DNA from: Neelides folsomi
Lineage: Eukaryota > Arthropoda > Collembola > Neelipleona > Neelidae
Direction of reading: 5' to 3'
Assembly: GCA_034687125.1 (NCBI GenBank)
Contig: JAQGBZ010000007.1
Location: 1-64,000, forward strand
Length of the DNA: 64,000 nucleotides
Of the stretch, positions 7,521 through 55,322 are shown in pieces. Numbering within the stretch: position 1 is the stretch's first letter; each line of letters begins with the position of its first letter. The translations under genes and the position numbers were made by a program. The notes under the pieces were generated by a model. It saw nothing but the letters and a program-made list of their open reading frames with translations. It was not told where the DNA came from and did not search any database.

Positions 7521-10500
7521 ATGGAGCCCACAAGTTCTGAAGAAAAGAGGCAAACCAATTCTGGAGAAGGAGGAAGTCCATATGACCTCAACGGAGTTCA
7601 ATTCAATCCTGAAATGTTTATTCAAAAAGTTATTAAGGTGAAGATTCGAATCTCTATTATACTCTATTGTAAATTATAATTAAATTGATCAATTTCATAA
7701 TTTTTAAATCAATTGTTAGGATTATCCTCTTAGCAAATTGATGGAGACGGAATCGAACCTCATTCGGCAAATTCAGGATTTGGATTCTGACATGCAAACC
7801 TTGGTATATGAAAACTACAACAAATTCATTTTGGCGACAGACACCATACGAAAAATGAAAACGGATTTCAGGGAAATGGAAGACAAAATGGGTCTTTTGT
7901 CATCCAAAATTTCCCTAATTACCGACAATTCAAGCCAAATATCTGATAATTTAAAAGTAAGCATTTAACTTTTTCAATTATTTTATTGAAATATGGAAAA
8001 TTCCTCAACAACTCTATTTCTCTATAAAGCTTTCATTTACAACAATCTGTTGATACTTAACATTTATTTAAGGAAAAACGGGACAAAGTTAACAAATTAT
8101 CGAGCATTCACGACCTCTTAAAGAAACTCAAATTTTTATTTGAACTACCAACAAAATTAAAGCAATTGTCAGAAGAAAATAACTACGAAGAGGTAATGCT
8201 TAAAGAATAAAATAATATTAACTTTATTAAATCTCAAAATTTATAATTCTCTTATCTTAAAGGACAATGTTTTATTTATTTATAGGCTGTGAGGTGTTAT
8301 AAAGACGGAGTTGAATTTGTTAGCGAGTTTAAAAGATTCCCAAGTCTCATTGCAATTAAACAAGATTGTCAACACATTGTAGTTAAAATTCGAGAAGATT
8401 TATATAAAGATTTCGAAGATTCGGAGGTAAGATAACGTTAATATCTATTGAATTGAATTTGAAATGTTTACTGAATTTATCCAATGATCTTTATATTTGA
8501 GTTTTCAAAATGTCCTATTAATTTATTTTCATTTAGATGTCTTCTCAGGACTTAACGAGGAATGTAAATCTGCTTTTAAGCCTTGGTGAAAGTCCTTCAA
8601 CGTTAGGCAATCGATTCTTGGCAAATGCTGCACCAAAACTAAATCAAAATCTTGACTCAATGTCTCATTCAAACAATTCAAACGTAAGCTCAACTTGTCG
8701 ATTATCAACTCAATTTAATATGTCGGATGGCTTTGATGCTAATTATTAATTCAATCTTTGTTTTAAGGTTCCAATCGATGAGTATATGGAGCTTGGTTGT
8801 GGAATTTACCTGAGTAATTTAAGCTTAGTTATTGCATCTTTTTCCCATTCGTTCATACAAGCCACAGAGTAAGGATCATTTAATTAATTGATTAAATTAT
8901 AGAATTCATATTTGATACACATGTAATGTAAACATGATATAAAGATTAATTTCAACTTTAATTTCTTCATTATTTAAGATTGAGTGAAGAAAGCCGTCGC
9001 GAGTCCCAAGATAATCTTCATGTATTTGTCAAAGGACTAATGGACAAGTTTTTCAATTTAATGGAAGGCCGACTTCTTGTAGAAGTGAAGCAAGCACACG
9101 AAGATCATAGATTTAGGGAATATCTTCTTCATGCTCTCGATCGTTTACATCGTCGTTTAATGGCCCTTGGAACTCTGATGCCAAAATCTGATTTTGCTCT
9201 GTAAATTACAAACAAACTTAATTTTTGAATTATCAATATTTTAATTATGAAGTAGTTTATATTGAGCCGAGATTTATATAGATTATTTTTCTCTAGATGT
9301 GGATTGGATTTGATATCAAAAGTAAGCCAAGCGGATGCGGCGTTGAGTCTTGAAAATATCAAGAAGTCATTTGAAGTTTCGATGAAGGAGGCCTGCAGGG
9401 AACTTCGATCCCAACCTGGATCCACCCAAGAACTTCTTGGTTCAATTCTCGCAACATTTATTTCCCAATTGAAACTGAGTTTGAAGCATCTTCAGGAATT
9501 TTCTCGTTCGGAATTTCATTTTGCACAAAGCAACGAGTTTCAAAAAAGACTTGCTCATGTAACAGTTCGCGAACAACTTGTCGTTGCTTCATTTAGATAT
9601 CTGGCCGATTTTGGAAGTTCATTTATATCCGGAGACGATTACGACAATCTCACATGGCTCCTTGCTTCTAAACTCTTTCTTGATATCGAAGTCGGAACTG
9701 TTGGTTACATCGTAAGTTAATCAATTATGAATTTCGGATTTATATTTGTGAATTTTATATTCATGATTGATATATAATTTCTTCGAGTATAGTTTTTATT
9801 TCTTTGGGCAGATTAACGCAGTGGAAGTGGATTTTGACATGATTAAAGATAAGAGATCTGGGATTTGGAAAAGTACGAGTGTTTCTGAATTGACCCAAGC
9901 TCTCAATTCTACATCTAAGGCCCTCATTAAAGAGTTCATTATTTATCAAGGGAATCAATTGTCTGAGGTAAAGACGACATATTAATTTAAATTTAAAATA
10001 TAACATAAATCTCATTTAAAATTTCAGAAAAGAATGTAATTACCTAATGACCCAATTAAAATATTTTTCTAGTTGTTGAAGAAAGCCGTGCTTAACAAAG
10101 ATTTGATTTCAATACAAAAACCACCTGAGGGTCCTCAGCCCGAAATGAAGAAAATTGTTGAAATTCTGACCATTTTAGAAAAACATTTAGATTCAATATT
10201 CCCCGATATGGATGTTCAGAGTTATATGAAAAGCGAACGATCTTCCGATTCCTCAAAAAGATCTTACAGGTAAGAGTAATTTCCTTTGTATTCGGATAAA
10301 TTATTATTAAAATAGTTTTAATCCTTATGCTTTGCAGAAAGAATAAATTGTTTTTTAAACCAAGGTTAATTATTTAATTAATGGTTTAATTACTTTTGTT
10401 TTTAGTGTGAATCCATCTTCGAAATCCCTTCCGAGGCCTCCCCTTTGGTCCAACCTCGACCCAAATATGGCAAATAATATTCAAAAGCTTTTCTCAGAAA

Positions 10501-10938
10501 AAGTCGAGATATTTTCTCAAGTCGATTTCCACAAAAGTGACATTCTCATGATGATCATCAAAATTGGGCTAAGGGTGGGTATTAGCGACTTAATAATACA
10601 TATGACATAAAAAATATATTTACTTAATTAAAATGTAATGAGAATTTTATTTATTTATCAAAGGCATTTCTTGAATTTGTTCGATTAAAAACGATATCCA
10701 AATATGGGGTTCATCAAATCCAGGTGGATGTTCATTACCTTCAACTCTATCTTTGGAGATTTGTAAACAATGAGAGGTGAGTTGATTTTATTAAATTGAG
10801 AAATGGAGTAATCAGAATTGGATTTTCAGCTTCATGCATTCCCTCCTTGATGAAATTCTGGCGAGTTCAATCCAAAGGTGCATCAACCCTTGCACACTAC
10901 TCGACACTTCTGCCTTGGAATGTCTCGCCGAGAAGTAA
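7521..10938 (+). CDS. VPS51: VPS51, GARP/EARP tethering complex subunit
   Basis: Subunit shared by the GARP and EARP tethering complexes, which dock endosome-derived carriers at the trans-Golgi network and recycling endosomes. Thirteen exons: 7521-7637, 7720-7956, 8073-8192, 8286-8426, 8537-8683, 8768-8868, 8979-9200, 9297-9711, 9812-9967, 10073-10269, 10406-10574, 10664-10776, 10830-10938. Their lengths sum to 748 codons in continuous phase (747 aa; human is about 780). The near-invariant N-terminal block [20 protein letters not shown], followed by [15 protein letters not shown], identifies the family. Later matches are [39 protein letters not shown] and [17 protein letters not shown]. The N-terminus is predicted coiled coil, the rest helical rod. 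No odd residues or breaks. AATAAA occurs at 10956. Confidence 0.96.
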
Positions 10939-10955
10939 AACGAAACTTTATTTGA

Positions 10956-10961
10956 AATAAA
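10956..10961 (+). terminator. VPS51 polyadenylation signal
   Basis: AATAAA 18 nt after the VPS51 stop codon. Confidence 0.6.
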
Positions 10962-13080
10962 TGCAATAATGAACTGTTTTATTATTAGAAGATGAATCTG
11001 GCCCTCAGCGACCAAAAACCAATACCACCAAAAATTATTTTATTCCAAAAAATTTAACGCTAATCATGTCGTTAGTTGATGTGCAATTATAATAATAAAA
11101 AAATTGTTTGCTATTCTTTTAATACACATATTTACATATATATATATTTATGCTACTGGGATATAACTACGAATGTATAGTGGGTATATGGATTATGTTC
11201 ATGCTATTATTATATGAAAATGTTTAAAATGAAATAATAATGATAACTGTGAATTTTTAAATTACAAATATTTCCTGATAAAAATTGGAAATCATAATGT
11301 GGTTTATTTATCTCGGTGTAAGTCTAAATTTATGGTAATTTATTTAATGTAAATTTTCAAGGAATCATTTTAAACTCAGCTGTGAGAATTTTAACTTCAA
11401 AAGAAAAGTATTTTAAAATAAAAAAACCTTGGAACGTGTTCGATTGATTTCTTTTGGTTCCCCATATTACCATTTATTAAAATCAGAATCTGCCTCGAGG
11501 TTGAGCATTCTACGAAGGATTATAAAACTACCAAGGAAGGATCGAGATGAGAATAAGGAAATGAGGAGTTTGATGGAAAGATGAAAGCTGACAGGATAGT
11601 GGGAACAGCCGAATGGCATAAATGTACATTAGGACTCGAAAACGCCGTTGGTGTTGAAATCAAATAATTCACGTATTATTTTTCTCTATAATAAATGAGA
11701 ATCAAAAAGTATTCTTTAGTTGAATTGGGTTTAGATTGAGAGAGTGATTCCATGAATGGTCTTTGGATCATTGGGAAGAAGTTGGTAAAATTGGGGCACA
11801 TTGAGGAACTGGCGTACAATGTATTGGATGTATGGGATTCATGGACATGAACGCTGTCGTGGCAATTAAAGATGGAGTGATCAATTGAAGAGGTATTATG
11901 AATATATCTGGGCCGGGGGTGGGCCGTGTGGTTTCGAGGATCAAAAGAAGACCGGAGATGTTGATGCGGATAAATGGAGTGTGTGGAAGGGGGGAATGTT
12001 TTCACAGCGTATGCCTCCGCCTGTCTCCCACTTAAACGTATGAATGATGAATATTCAATCAACGAAACACCTGTGCCATATGGGCGAAGAAGACCACGGC
12101 TCTAACATTTTTATTCCTCTCTTCCATTGCGGTTTCTCTCCTCGACACCTCAAATTGTCTCATCTCGGCGTTGGCTCCAGAGCTCGACGGCCGCCTCCCG
12201 CAACTCGTCTCAATTGAGAAGAACAAACACAAGAACAAACTTCGGGACTGCCCCAGACTCACCGTGTTTGTGACCGTTCTAATGGGCAGAGTTTCATTTC
12301 CTTGCTCGGTAGTTCGCTCACAAGCTTGGAAGGTTTGCCTCGTCCTCGTTCTCGCCGTTGACTCTCGCCCTTCTCCGCCCTTCTCCGGGTTCTAATTGAG
12401 TAATAAACAGAGTCAATTGACACTTTTGCACTGCCTTACTCCTTCACGGCACCCAACCCACGTTCCATTTTTTTCATCCATTCACCTCCATCCCTTAATT
12501 AATATAAAATAGAAATGTTTGCCTCACTTGCAATTCCACCTTTGTTGTAATGTAAATACTTTAAAGGGAATAGGAATAAGTTGTGCATTTCATCATTCTG
12601 CTCCATCTCCAGAAGACGCCCCATTAGGGCTCATGGAGATATTTAATGCTAATACTCGAATTAGTTAATGGCTAAAGGGTTGAGGACTTTTAATGACTTG
12701 ACCTTCCAAATGAATCGGTGATCGGATGGCAATTAAGATAAGGGGGCAGGTGAGGAGGCGGAGCAGGTAGGACGTCCACGGGGGCTACCCACCTCGTTTT
12801 CCCTACCTCTCACCTAATGACGAGGGTTCCTCATTGGCTCATCTTCACCTAATTGATTTCCACTTCATGCCTCATTCCCCATCGGACTTTCACCACTCTT
12901 CCGCTCGACTCCTTCAGTCTCCTTTTCACCCGCGGAGGATCCGGATCTCTCACTTACTCCCTGACCCACAAACACCTCCAGCCCATATGCGGATCAACGG
13001 TGGGTTAATCCCATAGACCATCCCTCCACTAATCTCTTTCTGTTTTCCAGGTTGTGGAGATGGTGGGACGAGGTCGAAGG
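10962..13080. other. Non-coding stretch upstream of miR-252b
   Basis: No protein gene is supported. From about 11.6 to 13.1 kb the base composition is clearly richer in G and C than the flanks, and long chance open frames occur on both strands without domain or splice support. Position and composition suggest promoter or primary-transcript sequence for the microRNAs to the right, but I see no direct signal for that. Confidence 0.4.
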
Positions 13081-13083
13081 GGT

Positions 13084-13155
13084 CGATGTGGCTAAGTAGT
13101 AGCGCCGCAGGTGAAGTGTCATTCCCCACCCGCGGCCTACTCCTTAACTCCCGCG
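13084..13155 (+). ncRNA. mir-252b: miR-252b-like microRNA precursor
   Basis: The 5' arm at about 13092-13114 begins CTAAGTAGTAGCGCCGCAGG. This shares the seed TAAGTAG with miR-252b as I remember it from crustaceans and lophotrochozoans, with one internal T-to-C change. The 3' arm at about 13127-13148 (CACCCGCGGCCTACTCCTTA) pairs with it with a few mismatches and a one-base bulge across a loop of about 12 nt, giving a typical pre-miRNA hairpin of about 60-70 nt. It lies on the same strand as miR-252, 3.8 kb upstream. Mature ends are inferred from homology, not read from RNA data. Confidence 0.88.
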
Positions 13156-16100
13156 ATGCCCGAAGTCGTCAAAGTCCTCGTCTCGGCCAGGGGACGATTG
13201 AATGGGGTTCTAACGAGAGGGTCCGAGGAAAGCTGCACAACTCCCCGACATGTGCTCCCAATCACACGTACTTTATTTGAATGCTAAAGAGGGCAATTGA
13301 GGAGAGAATTTTAATGTCAATTCATTTCCTTTTATCTGGCCCTCATAACGATGGAACAATGGTGGTAGAATAAATTAACCCTCCTCTCATGTCACCATTT
13401 CTAACGACTTTTGCTAAATTACGACCCTCACACTCCAAATATCACTTCCATGGGGCGGATAGAACCAGAGAGTATTATTTAGATAAACTAAATAACCATA
13501 TACCATAGTGTGGGTTATTATATATTGTCCGGGAGATGAACGGCGTCTCCACTTAATCGCTCCTTCCTATCTCCCCTCATCCTTATTGTTCAATAGGAGG
13601 TTCAATGATGGGCCAACTACCGTATTCCCAAATCAACTCAATTCCTCCTTCCTCTTTAACTGCTTTTAATAACTGAATAAATGGGCCCTTGGAATAAATG
13701 AACTTCCTTTTGGAGGAAGGGAGACAGAAAGACCCTTAATGAGCCCTTCCCGAACAAAAGTCAAAGTCCCTTTCAAAAACCCACCACTTGGGCCTTCCTC
13801 CACATGAGAGAAGAGGGTTTGTGCAATATTGAGAAGTTGAATCCATTTTGTAAGTGGGAATGGTTGTGACTTGATGAAGCTGTTTGATCCCTCCATGTAA
13901 AGACTCATCCCATATGTCCCTATTAGCTCTCCATATCCCTCGACTCCTCTGTTGCACATTACAAACACGACGAAAGGTCAAATGGGTATATAATGAATAA
14001 ATGAATACTAGTAGGGATATTTTGATCCATGAGAGGATCAGCTCATCTTTCCTTTATTGTGAAATGAACGACGGTTAAATGACTTTGGAAATGATGTACT
14101 TTAACTACTAAGGATAACTCTATGGTTGGAAAATATAACAGTGGAAGGATAGGAGGAGGGTTTAATGAGTCTTAATAATTTCCAGATATACATATTTTGA
14201 ATATATCCTCTTAGACAAGTCAATGGAGAGATGAAGAAGGCGAATGAAGTGAAGCAAAGATAGATAAGTGGAGTGAGATAAAGCTGGACCCCGATTAATT
14301 TTATTTTTTTCTTCCTCAACAGAAGGAGACTCAACTTGTGAACAACGTATTGCTCAAATAAATAAATATTAAATACAAGAACGACCCTCTTTCACAACCA
14401 ATAAACACTCTTCTAATGTCAGTTATCATGACTGAGTTATGTGAGGAAAAATTGTTAATTTTGTTAAATTATGTATTTAAAATTAAAACACTTCTCATTT
14501 GTGAATAAAAATTTTCTCAATTTTCTTCTGAATAATTAAATATTTGTTGAAGCATGTCATTTATTACTAAAGGCTACATATTTAGTTCATACATTGGTTA
14601 CTTGATAAGGATTACACACATTTAAAGTCAATAACGTCTTAAATATCATAATTTAATCCAAGGCAATTTACATATCCATGTGGGATCGAGGTTTATTCAC
14701 CTCAAGTTATTAGCTCAATTAAATTCAAATGAACAAAGACATTTTCTCAGAAAACGACATATCAATAATAATAAAATTAGAGAAATGATGACAAAGGATC
14801 CCAACCTCACAATTTCCATACATCAAAACATCCATTTTTGCGAATATTTGCCTATAGATGATATGTACCATATATATTAGTATTCTCACACGTACAGATT
14901 CTATACATAATAATTATATAATTATCCTAATTTGGATATACATATCTAATATATTTTCATGTTTTAGATAATATTATGATATAAGTGAATAAATGAATCT
15001 GCAATAAATAAGTTTTAATAATTAATGAGGACTTTCGCAGACTTTATTTTTCTAAATTGGATAGTTTACAAAGAACGATTTTATTTACGCCAAAGTTATT
15101 TACCCCATGATAATTTTTGCAAAGCTTCAAAATTTGCTCTCAAAGTCTATAATAATTGTTTTAATTGAGATGGCGTCTAAATTCCGTACATTTACCTAAT
15201 GTTTACTTTACAGTCATTTTAATTACGCTGACTAATGAGACTTTGGGCATCTGTCTAAATAGCAAACATATACTATACATACAGGATTATTAGGAGTACG
15301 TAATTAAATAGATATATTTTTTGTATAGTTATTAGTTATTAGTTTATTACATGTGTTAGATGGTAAGATGAAACGCTCATTATATGCTCTGCTTTCATTA
15401 CGTGTAAACCATCGCAAATACAATTAAGGAAAGAAAATGTAAAAGGATCGTTATTTTTATATAAAATATATACACGTACACTAAATCATATGTATCTATA
15501 CTATTAGTCAATTAGTACTTATGCATAATTTATATCCGCAAGTGATTGTTCAATTTTAAAATACTGAAAATTACAGCATTTAAGCGTTAATTCCGTAGTT
15601 AGTTTATATTTGATCAAACAAAAATACTCAGAAGATTAAAGATAGAAAAACTCGACAATGGAGCGAATAAATTAAAGTACTTGACCCAAACATTGAACCT
15701 ATCTATCAGCAACTCGATGATTACGAATATTATTTTTTATGAGTACCCATTTCTGTATATGAGGAGCAAATGATCAGAATGATCATTGATCATATTAAGT
15801 AAAATTGTAATAATATTGGTAATTCAGTATAGTATTTACATGTAAGTATCCATATAAAAATTACACATCACATATACGTATGTGATATGTGTATTAAATA
15901 CACATGCAAAGAATCAAAATCATACAGCAATTCTGACCTAATTCTTTAAAATAAGGCATTTCTTAATTTCAATCACTCTCCGTAAATAAATAAACATTTT
16001 AATGAAAATAAGTATATTATATGTAGTACGTATGTAATGAATTTATATATATACTTCTCAGAAATTACATTACATTTCTTCATGTATTACAAAATTTATA

Positions 16101-16839
16101 TTAACTATACTTACATTTAACATCTTTGTCTATTAGTTACATGTCACATACCATATTAACACACAGTATGTAAAAAGTTATGCATTTTACACTTTGATTA
16201 TCTTTAGAGTAAATATCTGTATAAGACTATTTGAGTTTATAAGTATGTATGAGCAAAACATGAACCATCAGCGTTGTTTTGCTGTCATAAGTGAATATTG
16301 AATATGGCTTGAGAAATATGTAATTATGTCATATGTATATGGTACATTTCGAGTAATACATATGCTGTATCTTGTGATTGGAAGCCTTCAAAAACTGAGA
16401 GATCGTAAGTCGTTAGATAAGAGCGAACTCCTAAGCATTGATGAACCAAATCAATGTTAATTCTGGTCTTCTTTCTCAATGGGTCTTTGGGGTTTGAAGT
16501 TGGTAAAAGGTTGATTATTTCGGGGAGTGGAATTTGAAGGGAGTTTTTTTTTAGTGTTTCTCCCCTGTGGGGCAGCGGAAGTTTGTAACGAGGACGGTTG
16601 GTCAGTTAATGACACCCTCGATTGGATCTCATTGTGGGAATGAGAGAGGAATTGGAGGTCTGGAGGAAGGGGGACCGAATTAATCTTCTTCATCATCATC
16701 GCCTCTCATCATCTCCCATTCTGGCACATTAAGGGTCACATCCTGTCTCCTCCTTGTGGATATTGACAGGAGACAGAGTCGGTGGGTCAGGCAGTCAGAG
16801 TTCGGCTCCCGGCCTCGGCTCATCTCAAGAGAACCCGAA
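13156..16839. other. Non-coding interval between the two microRNAs
   Basis: AT-rich, with scattered simple TA-rich stretches. No protein gene or further known microRNA is recognised. If the two microRNAs share one primary transcript, this is its middle part. Confidence 0.4.
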
Positions 16840-16930
16840 TCCCCTATTTCGTTCCTAAGTACTAGTGCCGCAGGAGACTGGATCATTACGCTGCTCCTGC
16901 TGCTCTTGTGCTTATCAATGGATATACGGG
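16840..16930 (+). ncRNA. mir-252: miR-252 microRNA precursor
   Basis: The 22 nt at 16855-16876 (starting CTAAGTACTAGTGCCGCAGG) are, as I recall it, identical to the Drosophila miR-252-5p sequence. The 3' arm at about 16894-16916 (CTCCTGCTGCTCTTGTGCTT) is complementary to it apart from a few mismatches, with a loop of about 17 nt, and resembles the known 3p arm that ends in AAGTGCTTATC. Seed, hairpin and arm choice agree. miR-252 is a protostome microRNA expressed in many tissues; its targets cannot be judged from here. Confidence 0.96.
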
Positions 16931-19661
16931 CGAACTTCCTCTGTGGTTGTCTTTCTTGGAATTCCGACCCTTCGTCCACTCACATGGTAGAACATTTATT
17001 GAAACCATAAGTTTATATTACCATATTATATAATACGGAGACCAGTAAGGTACGCAATTAGGAAATTGTTTTTTTCATCGGCTGGTTAAGAGAGATGTTC
17101 AACAGATTGTGGGAGTTCTCATTTAATTGTGGCTCATTGAGATAAAGGATATATATTATATATTTAGCACATGGAGCGTAATGGTAATCTCTATTTTATT
17201 TATGAGTCATGATTCCCCTTCGACCACGGCAGACATTCAAATTCCCCAGCCCGAGACCATTTGAGAGGGCTGGAGACGAATCGTCCGCTTATGTACTTAA
17301 ACATACACTTTGTGGCTTCCTCAAATAAAATAATAAATAAGTACCTACCGTGAACAACAAGTTCCTCCTTTTAAAATGACATATTAATAACCAAAGCATT
17401 CACATCGTATTTCACTTTATCCAGACCCCAATGAATTGATTCAACCCTTCAGTTCCTCATTTGCCTCATATTCAAATCAAACCCTCATATTTGGGAAATT
17501 ACTCAGTATATCCCATACTGGATTATATCTAGTAATCAATATTCATTTATACTTAATATTAAGAACAGTATGGTACATTGAAGAGAATAACTATAAGTCG
17601 TTTAATAAACAGTATGTATATCCGTTCAGGAATATGAAATATGCCTTTATACATAATATATGGTTTACGTTTAACTACATATACATTATATGTAAAGCAT
17701 GAAATTTAGCCCAATAAGCAAACCATTACATTAACTTATTGGCAATCAGTAAAAATAAGATTTTCATACAAGTCCAGTTTATCTATTTATGTACTTTCCA
17801 ATGATTATGCTTAAGATGACGCAATTTATTTTCAATGAATTAACTCCCGAAATTAAATGCCAATTGATACACAAATGAAACTTTAGAATTCTTAAAACGA
17901 TATATTTATAACTATTATATACTCTACCTATACATAAACTTTACTAGGCGCATTGTGTATATAAAATATACAGTTATATTTCGTATGTACGATACTAGTA
18001 TATTTATGCTTACCACGTAATTTAACATTTGCATATTTTTACCATATTAAATATATTTGAAATTTTTATGTTAGGCAAAACAAGTGATTGAAATAAGTGA
18101 TTAACCAACTTTAACTTATTTAATTCTTTATTGATCGTTTTTAAAAGGCACTAGAATTATGGAGTGTTAATCCAAATAAGTTATTTTACACTTTATAAAA
18201 GCTTATTTGTCTCCTCAATTCATACTTTATGTAGTAAAGTTAATTTCCTATATAACCCTTAAACATAAAAAATTTAATTTAGAACACAACAATTTCTATT
18301 TTTTCAGGTTCAAAATCCGACATTTGATTTTGGTAAAATAAAAACTAAAGTCATCACTTTTAAAATGGCCCTAAAGTATATTGTTACATTAGGTGTGTTA
18401 GTAGTCTTTTTTTCGTTGCACATGACATTATCAAATTTAGAATACCTCCAATTCATCAATGTTGTGTAGAAAAAATATTTATATAGCTTAATTAATATAC
18501 TTTATTTATTTACAAGAAAAAATTGGTTCTTTTAGGAGCACGTCGCATGTGAAATTCAGTCAAATTTCTTAAATTTAATGCAACTAATGTAAGATATAAA
18601 TATAAAGTTAGAGCTAAAACGATTCTAAAATAATTAACATGTTAACTTAAGTGGGTCTAAAGAATTGATTCAAATGAAAATATAATAAAAATAAATCTAT
18701 GAATACTAAAAATGGTTCCAGCTTTGAAGCTTCATTAAGAACATAATATTCACTATACATCCATTTGAATTTGATCTGTTTTATAGCTAACTGCCAACAT
18801 GGCTTACTAAAACGTTGAATTAAAATCCATTAAAATCGATTAAATCTGGAAGCACTAAAGAAGCCGAGCATATATATATGTATTAAATGTATAATATTTA
18901 AAAACATATTATATTCCAGTAGATATAAAAAGATCTTTCGTAAATCTCAATCTATAGAACCAGAGATTTATAAAAGTCGGCAATAGGACATTCGAATATA
19001 AATCCATAAATAGTGAAATATCCCTTTATAAATATAGTAGAGTTATCAAGTATCCATATATACCAAGTTATAGATGAGCGTTTTAAGTTTTGTTCAACTA
19101 TGCTTCTCAAAGTCGGTCAATTTTAAAACATTCATATTAGTTGCTAAAAATAGTTAAAACAAATTGAACAAGAAATTGAATAGTTAAAATTCATTTAAAT
19201 CAATTTAAGTATATAAATATACGTCAAATATAATTAAAATTACAAAGTTCCCTTTTATTTTAAAACATTCATGAATTTTTCATTCCATTACTTTTAAACT
19301 TTTTTTGATATAAAGAGAAGGTACATACATTAAGGTTATTCAGAATAGCATAGCAAAATTGCAAACATCCTTCCTCCGACAGCAAACTTTTACACAATTA
19401 ATTAATTTAAGTATCATATGTACAAAGTATGAAATGTAAAGTTTCGTTAACTCCCCCAACGACGCAATTAAAGTTAAATACGAAAAAACTAGATAAATTT
19501 TAAGTAATAAATTGCTCAACAAGTGAATTATACAACTTTGGGCTAAACTCCTCAATTATTTCTATACCTATATGTAATTTATATTATTCGGGTGTTCATC
19601 TTGTTAAGACATTTGATAGGAAGGAGAACACATTGGGCTCATAGATCTCCATCGTTGATTC
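16931..19661. other. Intergenic region between miR-252 and ENT
   Basis: Strongly AT-rich with no coding signal. Short open frames at 17.4-17.7 and 19.3-19.6 kb look random. Nothing else recognised. Confidence 0.4.
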
Positions 19662-21903
19662 TCATCCAAGGCTCACAACCGAAATGAACCAAGGGAAGAT
19701 GAAGGAAAGGAGAACTCCACCGAATATTCCTGTTATAAGAAAAGCAGCTCCAAACATCCCAGCAAGCGGGGCATATTCGCTTTCAACGCTCCTAAACAAT
19801 TACAAATTAATTAATAAAGAGCTATAAATAATATCCAATAAATATTGATTTAAATGTTATTAAAAATAATAAGAATTTCTCAAATGTTTCATAAAATGTA
19901 ATATGAGTAGTCATGTACCTTGGACAATACATCATGGCAAGAGAACTGAAGTATCCACTGGTAAGACCAAGAAGCGCTCCGCCGCCCCAGAAAAACCAAT
20001 CATTAATTAAGGGATTCCCAGGCATGAAGATTCTAGTAATAGCTTGTGGTTGGTAATTGCAGAGAATGAAGAATGGAATAAACAGAAAACGGAGAACAAT
20101 TGGAATCCACAAAAACCTTGGGCCAGGCTGAAATTTAAAATTGAAGTTTAGATACAAATGATATTAGTTTTAGAAAATAAATTCTTCTAATTCAGCATTT
20201 ATTTACTCACCCATTGAATTAATCCGGGAATCATATTTCCAATCATTGCCATAAGATTGAATGTGAGGAAACATGTAACAGCACGGAAATACTTTTCAGA
20301 TATAACAAACTCATCATCAATCGCTTTGACCTCTACAAACATAAAAGAAAAGCATTTTAATATATTTATTTAACACCCTTAAAAATATCCTTCAAATTCA
20401 TTAGAAATATTTACCCGAATAAACAGCAGGAAAAAGAGCCAATGTGACAAAGAAAACGAGGAACACATTGGCACACTGTGGCCAACATTGTTTAAACACC
20501 TTCAAGTACGGAGTTCTTGGCATAGCTCCAAGCTGTGAGGGCAAAAGCCTCTTTTTGTTTTCCTGCTCTTTGCTGCTCAACATTTCATGATAACGGTAGA
20601 ATTTCTGAAATTGGTAAATAAACGGCCCATTAGTGAGGAAGAAAATGGCCGACAAATGTCCATACGTTGAGTGGAAGGGCAAAGTAAGTGTCGAAGCAGA
20701 GGAGAAGAACAAACAGAGCCGTGATGAAGTAATAAATAGCCGCCGTCCTCGGTGTCGGTGCAATGGCAATCGCCAGAATATTAATGAGAGCAGTAAATGT
20801 TCCAGATATGTTCTGTTCAAATATTACACATTCAGTATATATTCTTGTAACAATTGAATTAAGATAAATAAATATATATATAAGATCAGAACACATATGT
20901 TAAAATACAAAATGGAATAACTCACAGATCCAAGAACAACAGCTCCAGTGTAATCTAACTTGGCTGCCATGCCGTAAACAGAATTTTGGTAAATTCCTCC
21001 AGCCACTGTTAAAACACAAAAAAGCCATTTGTATCGATTACACTCGAAATAATTAGAAAAAATAATTGAAATAAGAAACTCACTATTGATAATAACCACA
21101 GACACCATCGTGAGCCAAAAGAAAAGGCCGGGAGAGGCACTCGTGTCAACCATAGCAAGGACAATTGTTGCAATGAACAAAATGGCTTCAATCACAATTG
21201 ACCATACGATTCTTGTTTTCAGGTTCCCACTAAATTACAACAAAAAATTGAATTTGAAAATTAATCTCAAACATTGTCAAAATAATTAATTATTTTACAA
21301 TAACTCACCCAATCTGGACAAAAATGTTCAACCAGTTGAAGACAACATTTGGAATTTGCGAGGCGAATCCGAGATATTGCAAAAAATTCCCTATGTATTC
21401 CGATGTATCTTGGTTAGTGTAATTTGAACTCAGCTTGTAATCCACAAAATACTGAAAAATTAAATAAATCCCAATTATATAACTAATATATATCTACAAC
21501 TCGTTTTAAATTGCATATAAGGTAACATTAAATATTAATGTTAGTGTTAATTATAAATGTTCGAATCTCACCGAACTAGCTGTAATGAACATATTCCAAG
21601 GCATGAGTGTTCCAACGCCATGGATCAGCAAAATAATGTACACCAATTTGAACCTAAAATAAAAATAATAAAAATTTGAAAACAGCAAATTAAATAATGA
21701 ACCGAGTCTTAAATTGGAAATGAATAATTCCTATATATAAATAATTAGTAAATGAGGATTAAAATCCTGAAATGTACCGATCTTGAGGCATAGTGAGAAA
21801 AGGTCTCAACTTTTTACTCGCGTGATATTTGGCCTTATTCACTACGTTCTCATTGTTCTCTGTGAGCTCGACGGGTTCGCCTTGTGGTTTGAGCAAAAGT
21901 GGA
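19662..21903 (-). CDS. Equilibrative nucleoside transporter (SLC29 family), main exons
   Basis: Membrane carrier for facilitated nucleoside uptake, of the ENT1-3 type. Exons on the minus strand: 21903-21778 (start inferred), 21653-21572, 21451-21309, 21229-21084, 21005-20926, 20812-20666, 20604-20415, 20332-20211, 20127-19919 and 19791-19662 (stop TGA). All phases agree. The first exon carries PQDR followed by FKLVYIILLIHGVGTLMPWN, the hallmark first membrane segment. Later blocks are NSVYGMAAKLDYT, FYRYHEML before the large intracellular loop, PRFLWIPIVLRFLFIPFFIL, CNYQPQ, and NDWFFWGGGALLGLTSGYFS. About eleven membrane segments can be counted. From the internal ATG (MPQDR, 21791) the product is 420 aa; with upstream exons it would be about 528 aa. 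The family is certain; the exact paralogue and substrate range are not. Confidence 0.95.
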
Positions 21904-41500: not shown

Positions 41501-43603
41501 TCAAATTGGCCTTAATCTATTCGCAACCTCAAGTAGCGTTTAATTAAACTTCACCCACCCTCAAAAATGTCTTGGATTCAAAAAAATATCAATTGAAATT
41601 CAAGAATTAAAATTAAAAGCGAGATATTGAAAATGGACAAATTACTAACGTAAATTCCTCATCACCGCATGCTTGACAATTAAGCAAAGACGACCAACCA
41701 AGGTCCCCATTGTCAACTCAAAAGGGTAAATAAAGGTTAATAAAAAAATTAAAATTCTTCATTTGACTCTCACATACGATTAATAAGTGTACAAGTTCCA
41801 TTTACATCGAGATGTTTCCCTTCGATGCCACGATATTCGAAATCTCTTAATTAAATTTTTACCCTTTTTGGTCAAATTGAAACGAGTCCTAACCGAATTT
41901 CGCCTGATGAGTTGATGAGGTCGTCGTCCACCCCGCTTTCACTGTATGGCATCACTCATTTTGAACCCCCCTTTAAAGAAATCCAACGCTTTTGGTCCCA
42001 AGGGTGATCCGGTCTATATAATACACATATCCTTTCCTTAACCTCTACATGACTATTAAAGTGTAAAGTGAGTTTGGGATCGGCGGCCCCCGCCCCGAGT
42101 CCCATTCTAAAGCGCTCGGCATCACTTTCCATTTTTTTGGTTAAACCATTGTGGAATCATTGAATCTTAGTTCTCAACCCCAACATAAAATATTTTTTTC
42201 AATACGATAGATAAATAAGTTGGAAAAACGATTGTGAGAGCAAAATTAAAATCCTCTTAAAATTTAATATCCATCTTGTGATGTAAATATGGCTAGGTAT
42301 ATTAATTAATTAATTAATATATTTATAAACTTGACACTCAGTAAATTGATAATTGACAACTAGGGAAATGGGTTAAAAGTATATAGGTACTTAAACGTAT
42401 CTAAACTGCAGATTGAATCCGCAAATTACCTTAAACATTCACTTAAAAGTTAATTAATTGTAATACCCGGGGGTATCTTAATAGTTAAAGTTTTACACCA
42501 ATACTCGGACCCTTAAAACTGTGACTCGACGGGAGTCAAAGCAAGTAAATCATATAATTGTTGACGTAAATACATATATTTAGTTACATGACATTCAAAT
42601 CCTACCTGTAATATTAATAATATGTAAATCCACACTTAAGATATTATAGCATATATATTTATGTATAATGTGTTTAGAAATGAATGAATGTAGCTTGCCT
42701 TATTAATACATATACTGTTAAGAGTATTTCTAATGAAAAAAATACTGTTAGCATTTCTCAAACGCCGTAATTGTCAACTCAAAGCTTGACAAAACATAAT
42801 TGACTTGAAAGTGTCTGTGAGGAGCCACAAGGACCGCACAGTGTATTTAACAATATGATAACAAGATGATTAGTAATATTTATATATATATTTATAATTT
42901 ATAATACAAGAAAGTGATGATTTGATGATGGGGAGAATAATTCTTAAAGTGATTCGCGTAGGTACCTCTACCTACAGGTTCAAAGAATCTCCACCCTAAC
43001 TCAGAATACATATGTACACACGTTATTGAATGAATTGTACATTCAAGAGGCAGCCATTTGGAGATGTCTGGATATTAAGTTGAATGTCGACTAGGTACAT
43101 GGGTGAGGAAGGTCGTGGTTCCGTCTGGGGAGCCAACTATATAAAAATCAACCTTCGTAAATACAATTACACGTCCTCATCATCAAGTATTAAGAGCAGA
43201 ATGATTATCAGCCAGAGTTACATAAGTTCCGTTGCAGTAGGAGTGGACACCTCAGGCACGCACCCATGCACACACTCGTAAAGATTAATAAATTAAACGA
43301 CAGCCAGTTGATGTTCCGAGAGAGCCCTGAAGGACCGTGTGGGTCCGAGGGTCTCCGCAGGTCCGCGAGGGAGAGGATTGTCGGGTGACTAAAGACACTA
43401 GAGGGAAAGGTATTTGGCATCCTTCAGTAAATATAGCACTACGAGGAGTGTCCCGGGAGCGGGACGCGGACCGACGGGAACGCCCTGGCTCACAGGCACT
43501 CAGGAGTTGTCTCGGTGTGTCCACTGCTAGTCTACGTCCACTACGGCTGACTAACTGGATAGGAGGAACTCCGGCGAGGATGGTGGAGATGGTGCGGTCT
43601 CAC
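38579..43603. other. Intergenic, ALG2 to PKA
   Basis: Five kilobases without a supported gene. A 9-10 bp stem with a GCCGTC/GACGGC core lies at about 38614-38642 in the likely ALG2 3' UTR. A GC-richer island at about 40340-40560 and another at 42070-42120 stand out but have no frame or known motif. The right end (43.0-43.6 kb) is GC-rich and probably the PKA 3' UTR. Confidence 0.4.
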
Positions 43604-44712
43604 CTAGAAGTCGGCGAACTCTTTAGCACAACGTTCGGTCGAGGAGATACGAAGGACTTCTTCTTCGTAGTCGTCGAAGTTGCTCGTATCACCAGATCCT
43701 TTACACTTGGGGATGAACGGGGCCTCGACTTTTTTCTGGAAAATGGCGATCCAGTCGGTGGTGGCGAACCATTTGTGGCTCTTGATGTCGTTCACCCCGT
43801 TCTTCAGATTCCCGTACCGCTTGGTGAGGTCCACCTGGAGCAGGTTTCTCAGGAGGTCTTTCAAGTCGTTGGAGAAGTGGGAGGGGAACCGGACCTTCCC
43901 CGATACAATCTTCTCGTAGATTTGTATGGGTTGGTCGGCGAAGAAGGGCGGATATCCGGCAGCCATTTCGAACACAAGAACCCCGAGAGCCCACCAGTCG
44001 ACGGCCTTGTTGTAGCCTTTCGAGAGGATGATTTCGGGGGCGAGGTACTCGGGCGTCCCACACAAGGTCCAGGTCCGCCCCTTGACCCGCTTGGCGAACC
44101 CGAAGTCGGTGACCTTGATGTAGCCTTGGCTGTCGATCAGGAGGTTCTCCGGCTTCAGATCGCGGTAAATCAAGTCGAGGTAATGCAGGTACTCGAAGAC
44201 CAAGACGATTTGGGCGGCGTAGAACCGCGAGTGGGGCTCGCTGAACCGCCCCGTCTTCCGCAGATGGGAGAACATCTCCCCGCCCGGGATATACTCCAGT
44301 ACCATGTACAGGTTGGAATTGTCCTTAAAGTGATACTTGAGAGTCACGAGGAAGGGGAAGTTGATGGCGTGGAGGATTTTCTTCTCGTTCAGCGTGTGCT
44401 CCACCTGCTTCAGCTTCACCACCTTCTGCTTGTCCAGGATCTTCATGGCGTAAAACTCCTTGCTCGCCTTGTGCTGCACCAGCATCACCCGACCGAACGA
44501 CCCTGTCCCCAGCGTCTTGAGACGATCGAAGTCCTCGAGGGTGGCTCCGCTCTGGAAACCCAAAGGTCAGACTCGGGACTCGACCACGACCCTCACCGCT
44601 TCGGAGAGGCCCGAGACAGGAAGGGATGGGATTGTTAAGTTACAACTCACTGTTTGGGGGTTTCGCCATTTCTCCTCGAATTCTTCTTTAGCTTTCTCCA
44701 ACCACTCACGAA
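43604..44712 (-). CDS. cAMP-dependent protein kinase catalytic subunit, kinase exons
   Basis: Serine/threonine kinase that is released from regulatory subunits by cAMP. One large exon (44551-43604) holds the whole kinase domain and stop. A preceding exon (44712-44651) encodes the A-helix ending [11 protein letters not shown]. Motifs seen: glycine loop GTGSFGRV, lysine in [10 protein letters not shown], catalytic [15 protein letters not shown], activation loop [15 protein letters not shown] with the phosphorylated Thr, and a C-terminal tail [12 protein letters not shown] ending EFADF (usual FSEF). Identity to animal PKA-C is very high throughout. The exon at 44712 begins in phase 1, so at least one further coding exon must lie upstream; see the entry at 48715-51183. 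Antisense open frames across this exon are shadows. Confidence 0.97.
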
Positions 44713-54928: not shown

Positions 54929-55192
54929 TTATTCTTTCCCACATATACCCATTGTACCTTTTAAATTCTTGGATGACGTACGCTGTATGTTATATAGCTT
55001 CCCTTCTCGATTTTTAACACTACCTGTTTCGTGGAATTTTTTAACTATTTCAAATATTGATGTTCCAGAGGGGGGAGCTTTTCCGTTAAATTTTCGCCTA
55101 AAAAGCACTTTAGTTTCGTTATAACTTCGAGTAATTAAATAACTTTTTAATATAAATGTCCTTTCGCTAATTGTGAATTTGTGAGGAGCCAT
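54929..55192 (-). pseudogene. Transposase N-terminal fragment, open minus-strand copy
   Basis: An 87-codon frame: the first 57 or so residues are a helix-turn-helix domain (blocks FTISERTFILKSYLITRSY and IFEIVKKFHETGSVKN). It then runs into unrelated sequence and stops. A full transposase has several hundred residues with a DDE/D catalytic core, which is absent. Not expected to be functional. Confidence 0.75.
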
Positions 55193-55322
55193 GTTCGAAA
55201 CTACCCTTTGTTATTATCTTCATATGGCGCTCAAATAAACGTTTTTGAGATGTGAGAAATATGCTATTGAGAAATACGATATGCTGGGATGTATAATATA
55301 TGCTCTTTATCGAATTAGGTAT

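Follow-up and report, generated by a model that had tools for sequence, protein, structure and literature searches.

Two hairpins with a mir-252 core lie on one strand of this DNA, and the question they raise is whether they are genuine microRNA genes and, if so, whether they belong to one cluster. The window (the whole stretch of 64,000 nucleotides that was analysed) is the start of its contig in a 75.1-Mb assembly. The initial annotation had named the pair miR-252 and miR-252b. Both hairpins were found, and both names agree with mature-sequence identity and with Rfam (the a-type above the cut-off, the b-type below it), but a third hairpin on the same strand, resembling mir-2001, had been overlooked (Table 1). 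The order is mir-2001, mir-252b, mir-252a over 4.7 kb, with mir-2001 0.75 kb upstream of mir-252b and 3.7 kb between the two mir-252 hairpins; the Rfam matches of all three, obtained with the models' own cut-offs and in a relaxed scan, are on the + strand. To judge from their sequences, these are very probably three real microRNA genes of the families mir-2001, mir-252b and mir-252a. They are new members of known families, and the notable part is their linkage.

Table 1. Features of the microRNA cluster and its flanks; positions are those of the window, and mature-arm ends in all three hairpins were inferred from pairing with 2-nt overhangs.
Feature	Position	Strand	Evidence
Upstream neighbour, VPS51-like gene	7720-10938	+	Frame 7720-7965 matches Pfam VPS51_Exo84_N (E 2.4e-20); stop codon 10936-10938
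mir-2001-like precursor hairpin	12262-12329	+	Rfam mir-2001 RF03374, 31.5 bits, E 0.0061 for window; whole model aligned (1-72 of 72)
Predicted miR-2001-5p TTGTGACCGTTCTAATGGGCAG	12268-12289	+	Ends inferred
Predicted miR-2001-3p	12304-12325	+	Ends inferred from pairing, 2-nt overhang
mir-252b precursor hairpin	13084-13155	+	Rfam mir-252 RF00838, 38.5 bits, below the cut-off of 45; E 0.00042 for window
Predicted miR-252b-5p CTAAGTAGTAGCGCCGCAGGTG	13092-13113	+	Nucleotide 12 is C instead of T, unpaired
Predicted miR-252b-3p	13129-13149	+	Ends inferred from pairing
mir-252 (a-type) precursor hairpin	16847-16923	+	Rfam mir-252 RF00838, 72.5 bits, above the cut-off of 45; whole model aligned (1-77 of 77), E 3.7e-13
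Predicted miR-252a-5p CTAAGTACTAGTGCCGCAGGAG	16855-16876	+	21/21 identical to the printed Blattella miR-252-5p (PMC3462697)
Predicted miR-252a-3p CCTGCTGCTCTTGTGCTTATCA	16896-16917	+	Ends inferred; 19/21 identical to the reverse complement of the printed Blattella miR-252-3p inhibitor (PMC3462697)
Downstream neighbour, nucleoside-transporter exons	19825-20899	-	Pfam Nucleoside_tran, E 3.9e-15 (19825-20163) and 1.4e-9 (20633-20899)

The a-type hairpin exceeds the cut-off of the covariance model. Folding of 16837-16933 gave one stem (-34.4 kcal/mol, z -4.14; 1 of 200 shuffles as good) with the arms that had initially been named, and both arms of this stem correspond to the Blattella sequences given in the table. 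The 5p arm is also identical at 19 of 21 positions to its printed Biomphalaria counterpart (PMC7328434).

The match of the b-type hairpin to the same model appears with the cut-off lifted, in the relaxed scan. Its low score was not counted as a failure, since mir-275 (49.2 bits, cut-off 56) and mir-305 (64.5 bits, cut-off 66), which lie 108 bases apart in this genome and served as a yardstick, fall below their cut-offs as well. The 5p arm, taken over 13092-13114, is identical at 21 of 23 positions to the sequence printed for Marsupenaeus japonicus miR-252b_1 (PMC8804360) and at 18 of 22 to that of Biomphalaria bgl-miR-252b-5p (PMC7328434). The region 13072-13165 folds into one stem (-37.7 kcal/mol, z -2.87; 1 of 200 shuffles as good), again with the arms as initially named, and the 5p arm on it has the b-type eighth nucleotide (CUAAGUAG). 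A T-to-C change had been remarked upon in this arm; it concerns nucleotide 12, a position beyond the seed that has no partner in the predicted stem. Its reading as a lineage-specific variant fits the literature: of 12 papers whose main texts contain an exact match to any of six strings, nine have the T form and none has the C form. A candidate 3' splice site, with an exon start at 13051, precedes miR-252b-5p by 41 nt; it shows nothing, because four of the 89 candidates, this one included, share the best pyrimidine score.

With three mismatches allowed, the window has two mir-252 cores and no others, CTAAGTAGTAGCGCCGCAGG at 13092-13111 and CTAAGTACTAGTGCCGCAGG at 16855-16874, both on the + strand. 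In the assembly of 75,104,828 bases they are the sole two among the matches listed at up to two mismatches, both exact, and no further mir-252 copy stands among these; as in all core searches, the assembly counts are lower bounds. The backwards control equally gave two assembly matches at up to two mismatches, so the tolerance alone proves little.

The mir-2001-like hairpin scores far below its gathering cut-off of 74 bits. In the relaxed scan, matches outside the cluster to mir-297, MIR529, mir-4012, mir-3149, mir-548 and SCARNA7 also lay far below their cut-offs and were taken as chance. By E-value, MIR529 (0.021) and mir-297 (0.093) come fairly close to mir-2001, so this measure would not suffice by itself, and the case for the candidate rests instead on its mature arm, its stem and its place. 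The predicted 5p arm is identical at 20 of 23 positions to the Biomphalaria bgl-miR-2001-5p printed in PMC7328434 and at 19 of 20 to Marsupenaeus novel_mir24 as given in PMC8804360, and the region 12250-12342 folds into a single stem (-32.5 kcal/mol, z -2.71 against 100 shuffles). A 20-nt core with nucleotide 12 left free has one place without mismatch among the assembly matches listed, none of the others there coming below three mismatches. The nine other places listed have three mismatches each, the backwards control having given 11 places in all; seven of the nine were tested and had no Rfam match at E 0.05. Nucleotide 12 of miR-2001-5p is C, where the published forms compared have A, and the occurrence of a difference at this nucleotide in both miR-2001 and miR-252b is taken as coincidence. 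The shortfall of mir-2001 against its Rfam cut-off is much larger than those of the mir-275 and mir-305 pair.

An 8.6-kb region devoid of protein genes had been described around the hairpins. No gene was recognised there, none of the 17 stop-to-stop frames of at least 70 aa wholly inside the gap having a Pfam match at E 0.01, but the size was understated: from the stop codon of the upstream neighbour to the exon beginning at 19825 the gap measures 8,886 bases. That stop codon, the last frame and the frames 8962-9201, 9256-9717 and 10359-10607, these three without Pfam match, were assigned to the VPS51-like gene in a reading by eye; on the downstream side, the frame 20404-20823 likewise has no Pfam match. 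GC content is 42-49% in 12000-13999 and 16500-16999 and about 26-32% in 14000-16499.

The intergenic region was also scanned for stems on both strands in windows of 80 bases that began between 10600 and 19395 (thus covering 10600-19474); on each strand, the stems kept had to start 60 or more bases from one another. Among the 19 stems kept, the sense hairpins rank fourth (mir-252b, z -3.03), seventh (mir-252a, z -4.09) and ninth (mir-2001, z -2.71) by energy. The most stable is the antisense of mir-252b (-41.0, z -5.93), and others lie at 17220-17299 (- strand, z -4.31), 10855-10934 (+ strand, z -3.55) and 15835-15914 (- strand, z -3.52). The hairpins are not singled out by fold energy. The expectation that ORF-based pipelines would miss these genes is fair, as Rfam's own cut-offs recover one of the three, the a-type. 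An ORF-based annotation would pass over all three of the conserved regulators in this gene-poor stretch, and two of them, mir-252b and mir-2001, would be overlooked by Rfam's cut-offs too.

If expressed, the hairpins would be processed by Drosha and Dicer, and the 5p arm of each would supply a guide some 22 nt long. In the predicted folds the 5p arms of both mir-252 hairpins start with an unpaired C, and because this first nucleotide is unpaired, loading of the 5p strand into Argonaute would be favoured. The guides would then repress mRNAs through pairing of their seeds, nucleotides 2-8, to 3'UTRs. The two mir-252 guides had been credited with different seeds; nucleotide 8 does differ, but nucleotides 2-7 (UAAGUA) are common to both, so their target sets would overlap without being identical.

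From strand and distance a common primary transcript, as initially suggested, is plausible. It is a serious possibility, somewhat short of an even chance, that the hairpins are real but separately transcribed, each from its own promoter. The 3.7 kb between mir-252b and mir-252a are AT-rich over 14000-16499, and in Blattella the temporal profiles of the two differ, with peaks at different times (reported in PMC5637074); that difference, between genes some 40 kb apart, argues against an obligate shared transcript. Set against separate transcription, though not as measures of transcription itself, are the common strand, the short span and the absence of any Pfam-recognised frame between the hairpins, together with the linkage of the same families reported in Lottia and Capitella (PMC3763532).

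The identity of the individual hairpins has three further challengers. Decay of mir-252b, and perhaps also of mir-2001, to the point where no functional guide is made in this lineage would account for their scores below the Rfam cut-offs and for the departure of both 5p arms, at nucleotide 12, from the published forms compared. We consider such decay improbable, given that nucleotides 1-11 of both are intact relative to the Marsupenaeus sequences printed in PMC8804360, that the 3' arms of both still pair in the predicted folds, that mir-275 and mir-305 of the same genome share the low scores, and that the altered mir-252b nucleotide lies unpaired outside the seed. Processing of the mir-252b hairpin from the antisense strand, alone or additionally, would give a different microRNA, and the antisense is indeed the more stable of the two (-45.9 against -37.7 kcal/mol; z -5.28, 0 of 200 shuffles as good) and heads the stem scan. 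Part of that extra stability, though, comes from guide nucleotides 1 and 18, whose A.C mismatches turn into G.U pairs on the antisense, and a mismatch at guide nucleotide 1 is normal. With an Rfam score of 38.5 bits on the + strand against 28.5 on the antisense, and with the + strand 5p arm identical at most positions to the miR-252b sequences printed elsewhere, antisense processing seems very unlikely. Chance resemblance was rejected as having next to no probability: the pattern CTAAGTANTAGYGCCGCAGG does occur by chance at two places, both bacterial, in a 257-Gb prokaryote collection, neither with a match to an Rfam microRNA model at E 0.05, but 0.01 core matches would be expected in the window at three mismatches, and here three hairpins of two families stand side by side with pairing arms and relaxed Rfam matches. 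A pattern scan of viral contigs gave no match.

What the linkage means depends on where the genome belongs. The contig carrying COX1 (15,157 bases) requires the invertebrate mitochondrial code, other genes on it being recognised by eye from translations. ARAGORN found 22 tRNAs on this contig, 21 of them named and one undetermined, and trnL(taa) lies between COX1 and COX2, which we take to be a pancrustacean mark. Patterns of miR-932, miR-14 and miR-989, presumably of the insect type, had no match at up to two mismatches, a weak hint that the animal is not an insect. Of mir-965, the genome has a copy scoring 62.3 bits (Rfam cut-off 43), and the pattern search for it gave one match with one mismatch, the backwards control also giving one match. 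This microRNA is described as mandibulate-specific (PMC4987109), and the position of trnL(taa) together with mir-965 places the genome in Pancrustacea.

The b-type mir-252 had itself been offered as a clue to the organism, on the ground that it is lost in insects. A general insect loss is wrong, since miR-252b is reported from the cockroach Blattella germanica (PMC5637074) and from the honeybee Apis (PMC8532292), and the clue is weak, miR-252a and b being reported also from amphioxus (PMC2728532) and Daphnia magna (PMC6828783). In the pea aphid a mir-252 tandem duplication is listed among the microRNAs that are not clustered in Drosophila (PMC3763532). For miR-2001, reports exist from ticks (PMC3141673, PMC6739385), shrimp (PMC3411463) and two millipedes (PMC7523956), while it is recorded as lost in a spider and said to be commonly lost in metazoans (PMC4987109). 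The conserved arthropod clusters listed in a passage of the millipede paper do not name mir-252 with mir-2001 (PMC7523956), nor is mir-2001 mentioned in the main text on Daphnia magna (PMC6828783). Conservation of the trio is thus patchy at best, the Daphnia text naming mir-252a and b without a mir-2001 that is commonly lost. No arthropod case of the trio was found in the main-text passages covered by the literature search, which also yielded nothing on mir-2001 in copepods and no MirGeneDB-style paralogue names.

For Lottia and Capitella, Marco et al. (2013) describe a tandem duplication of mir-252 that is accompanied by mir-2001, and the source of that cluster is given there as duplication/new hairpin (PMC3763532). 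Known from a mollusc and an annelid and found here in a pancrustacean, the trio is most simply read as having arisen once, before the protostomes split, though the same genes may instead have come together independently. The pancrustacean placement makes it more likely that the linkage predates the split, and most likely it dates to the protostome ancestor or earlier. On balance we lean towards the view that the trio formed a polycistron already in ancestral protostomes, perhaps in ancestral bilaterians, and that at least one pancrustacean has kept it together. If so, the trio of Lottia and Capitella would be no innovation of the lophotrochozoans, and its scattering or partial loss among insects would be the derived state. 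Linkage to mir-2001 in a pancrustacean would offer a possible gene-order character common across protostomes, and it bears on the view, argued by Marco et al. (PMC3763532), that old clusters arose once and were then kept together or lost whole.

Compared with known systems, the mir-252a hairpin is like the Rfam RF00838 model over its full length and above the cut-off. The mir-252b hairpin also matches that model at full length, but it differs from it in the C at nucleotide 12 of the 5p arm, in a loop 4 nt shorter and in one base missing from the 3' arm, and it stays below the cut-off. The mir-2001-like hairpin matches RF03374 at full length and is unlike it in nucleotide 12 of its 5p arm and in its score. 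In Blattella germanica, Mir-252a and Mir-252b are reported as linked, as here, although they are some 40 kb apart there and 3.7 kb here (PMC5637074). The closest likeness is to Lottia gigantea and Capitella teleta, in which two mir-252 copies are clustered with mir-2001 within the 10-kb limit of the paper that describes them (PMC3763532); both are lophotrochozoans, whereas the present trio is in a pancrustacean, and the likeness is one of membership.

Conserved microRNAs were also found on other contigs of the assembly. The mir-275 and mir-305 genes, a known arthropod pair, lie 108 bases apart on the same strand, each scoring slightly below the Rfam cut-off, and the mir-965 gene differs by one mismatch from the 20-mer used as the search pattern. 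The protein-coding matches in the window include DUF4817, a domain known from arthropod transposases, and a protein-kinase frame that appears PKA-like when inspected by eye.

Conserved microRNAs elsewhere in the assembly (G000) and other protein-coding matches in the window
Feature	Location	Strand	Evidence
mir-275 + mir-305 pair	L015 1450-1713 (G000:C43, around 30926)	one strand	Rfam scores slightly < cut-offs
mir-965 gene	L014 1494-1567 (G000:C56, around 117111)	-	Rfam score > cut-off
DUF4817 helix-turn-helix match	54932-55210	-	E 3.1e-9
Protein-kinase frame	43607-44566	-	320 aa, without stop
Open frame opposite protein-kinase frame	43331-44635	+	435 aa

At 13078-13162, the minus strand of the mir-252b hairpin gives a more stable predicted fold than the sense strand, and this antisense stem ranked first in stability among the 19 stems kept in the scan of 10600-19474. 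Nucleotide 12 is C in both miR-2001-5p (12279) and miR-252b-5p (13103), a position at which both differ from the published Marsupenaeus and Biomphalaria forms compared.

The mitochondrial contig (G000:C742, the source of stretches L004 and L005) is 15,157 bases long. As far as it was read, with trnN, ATP8 and the rRNAs outside the confirmed part, its gene order is the ancestral pancrustacean one.
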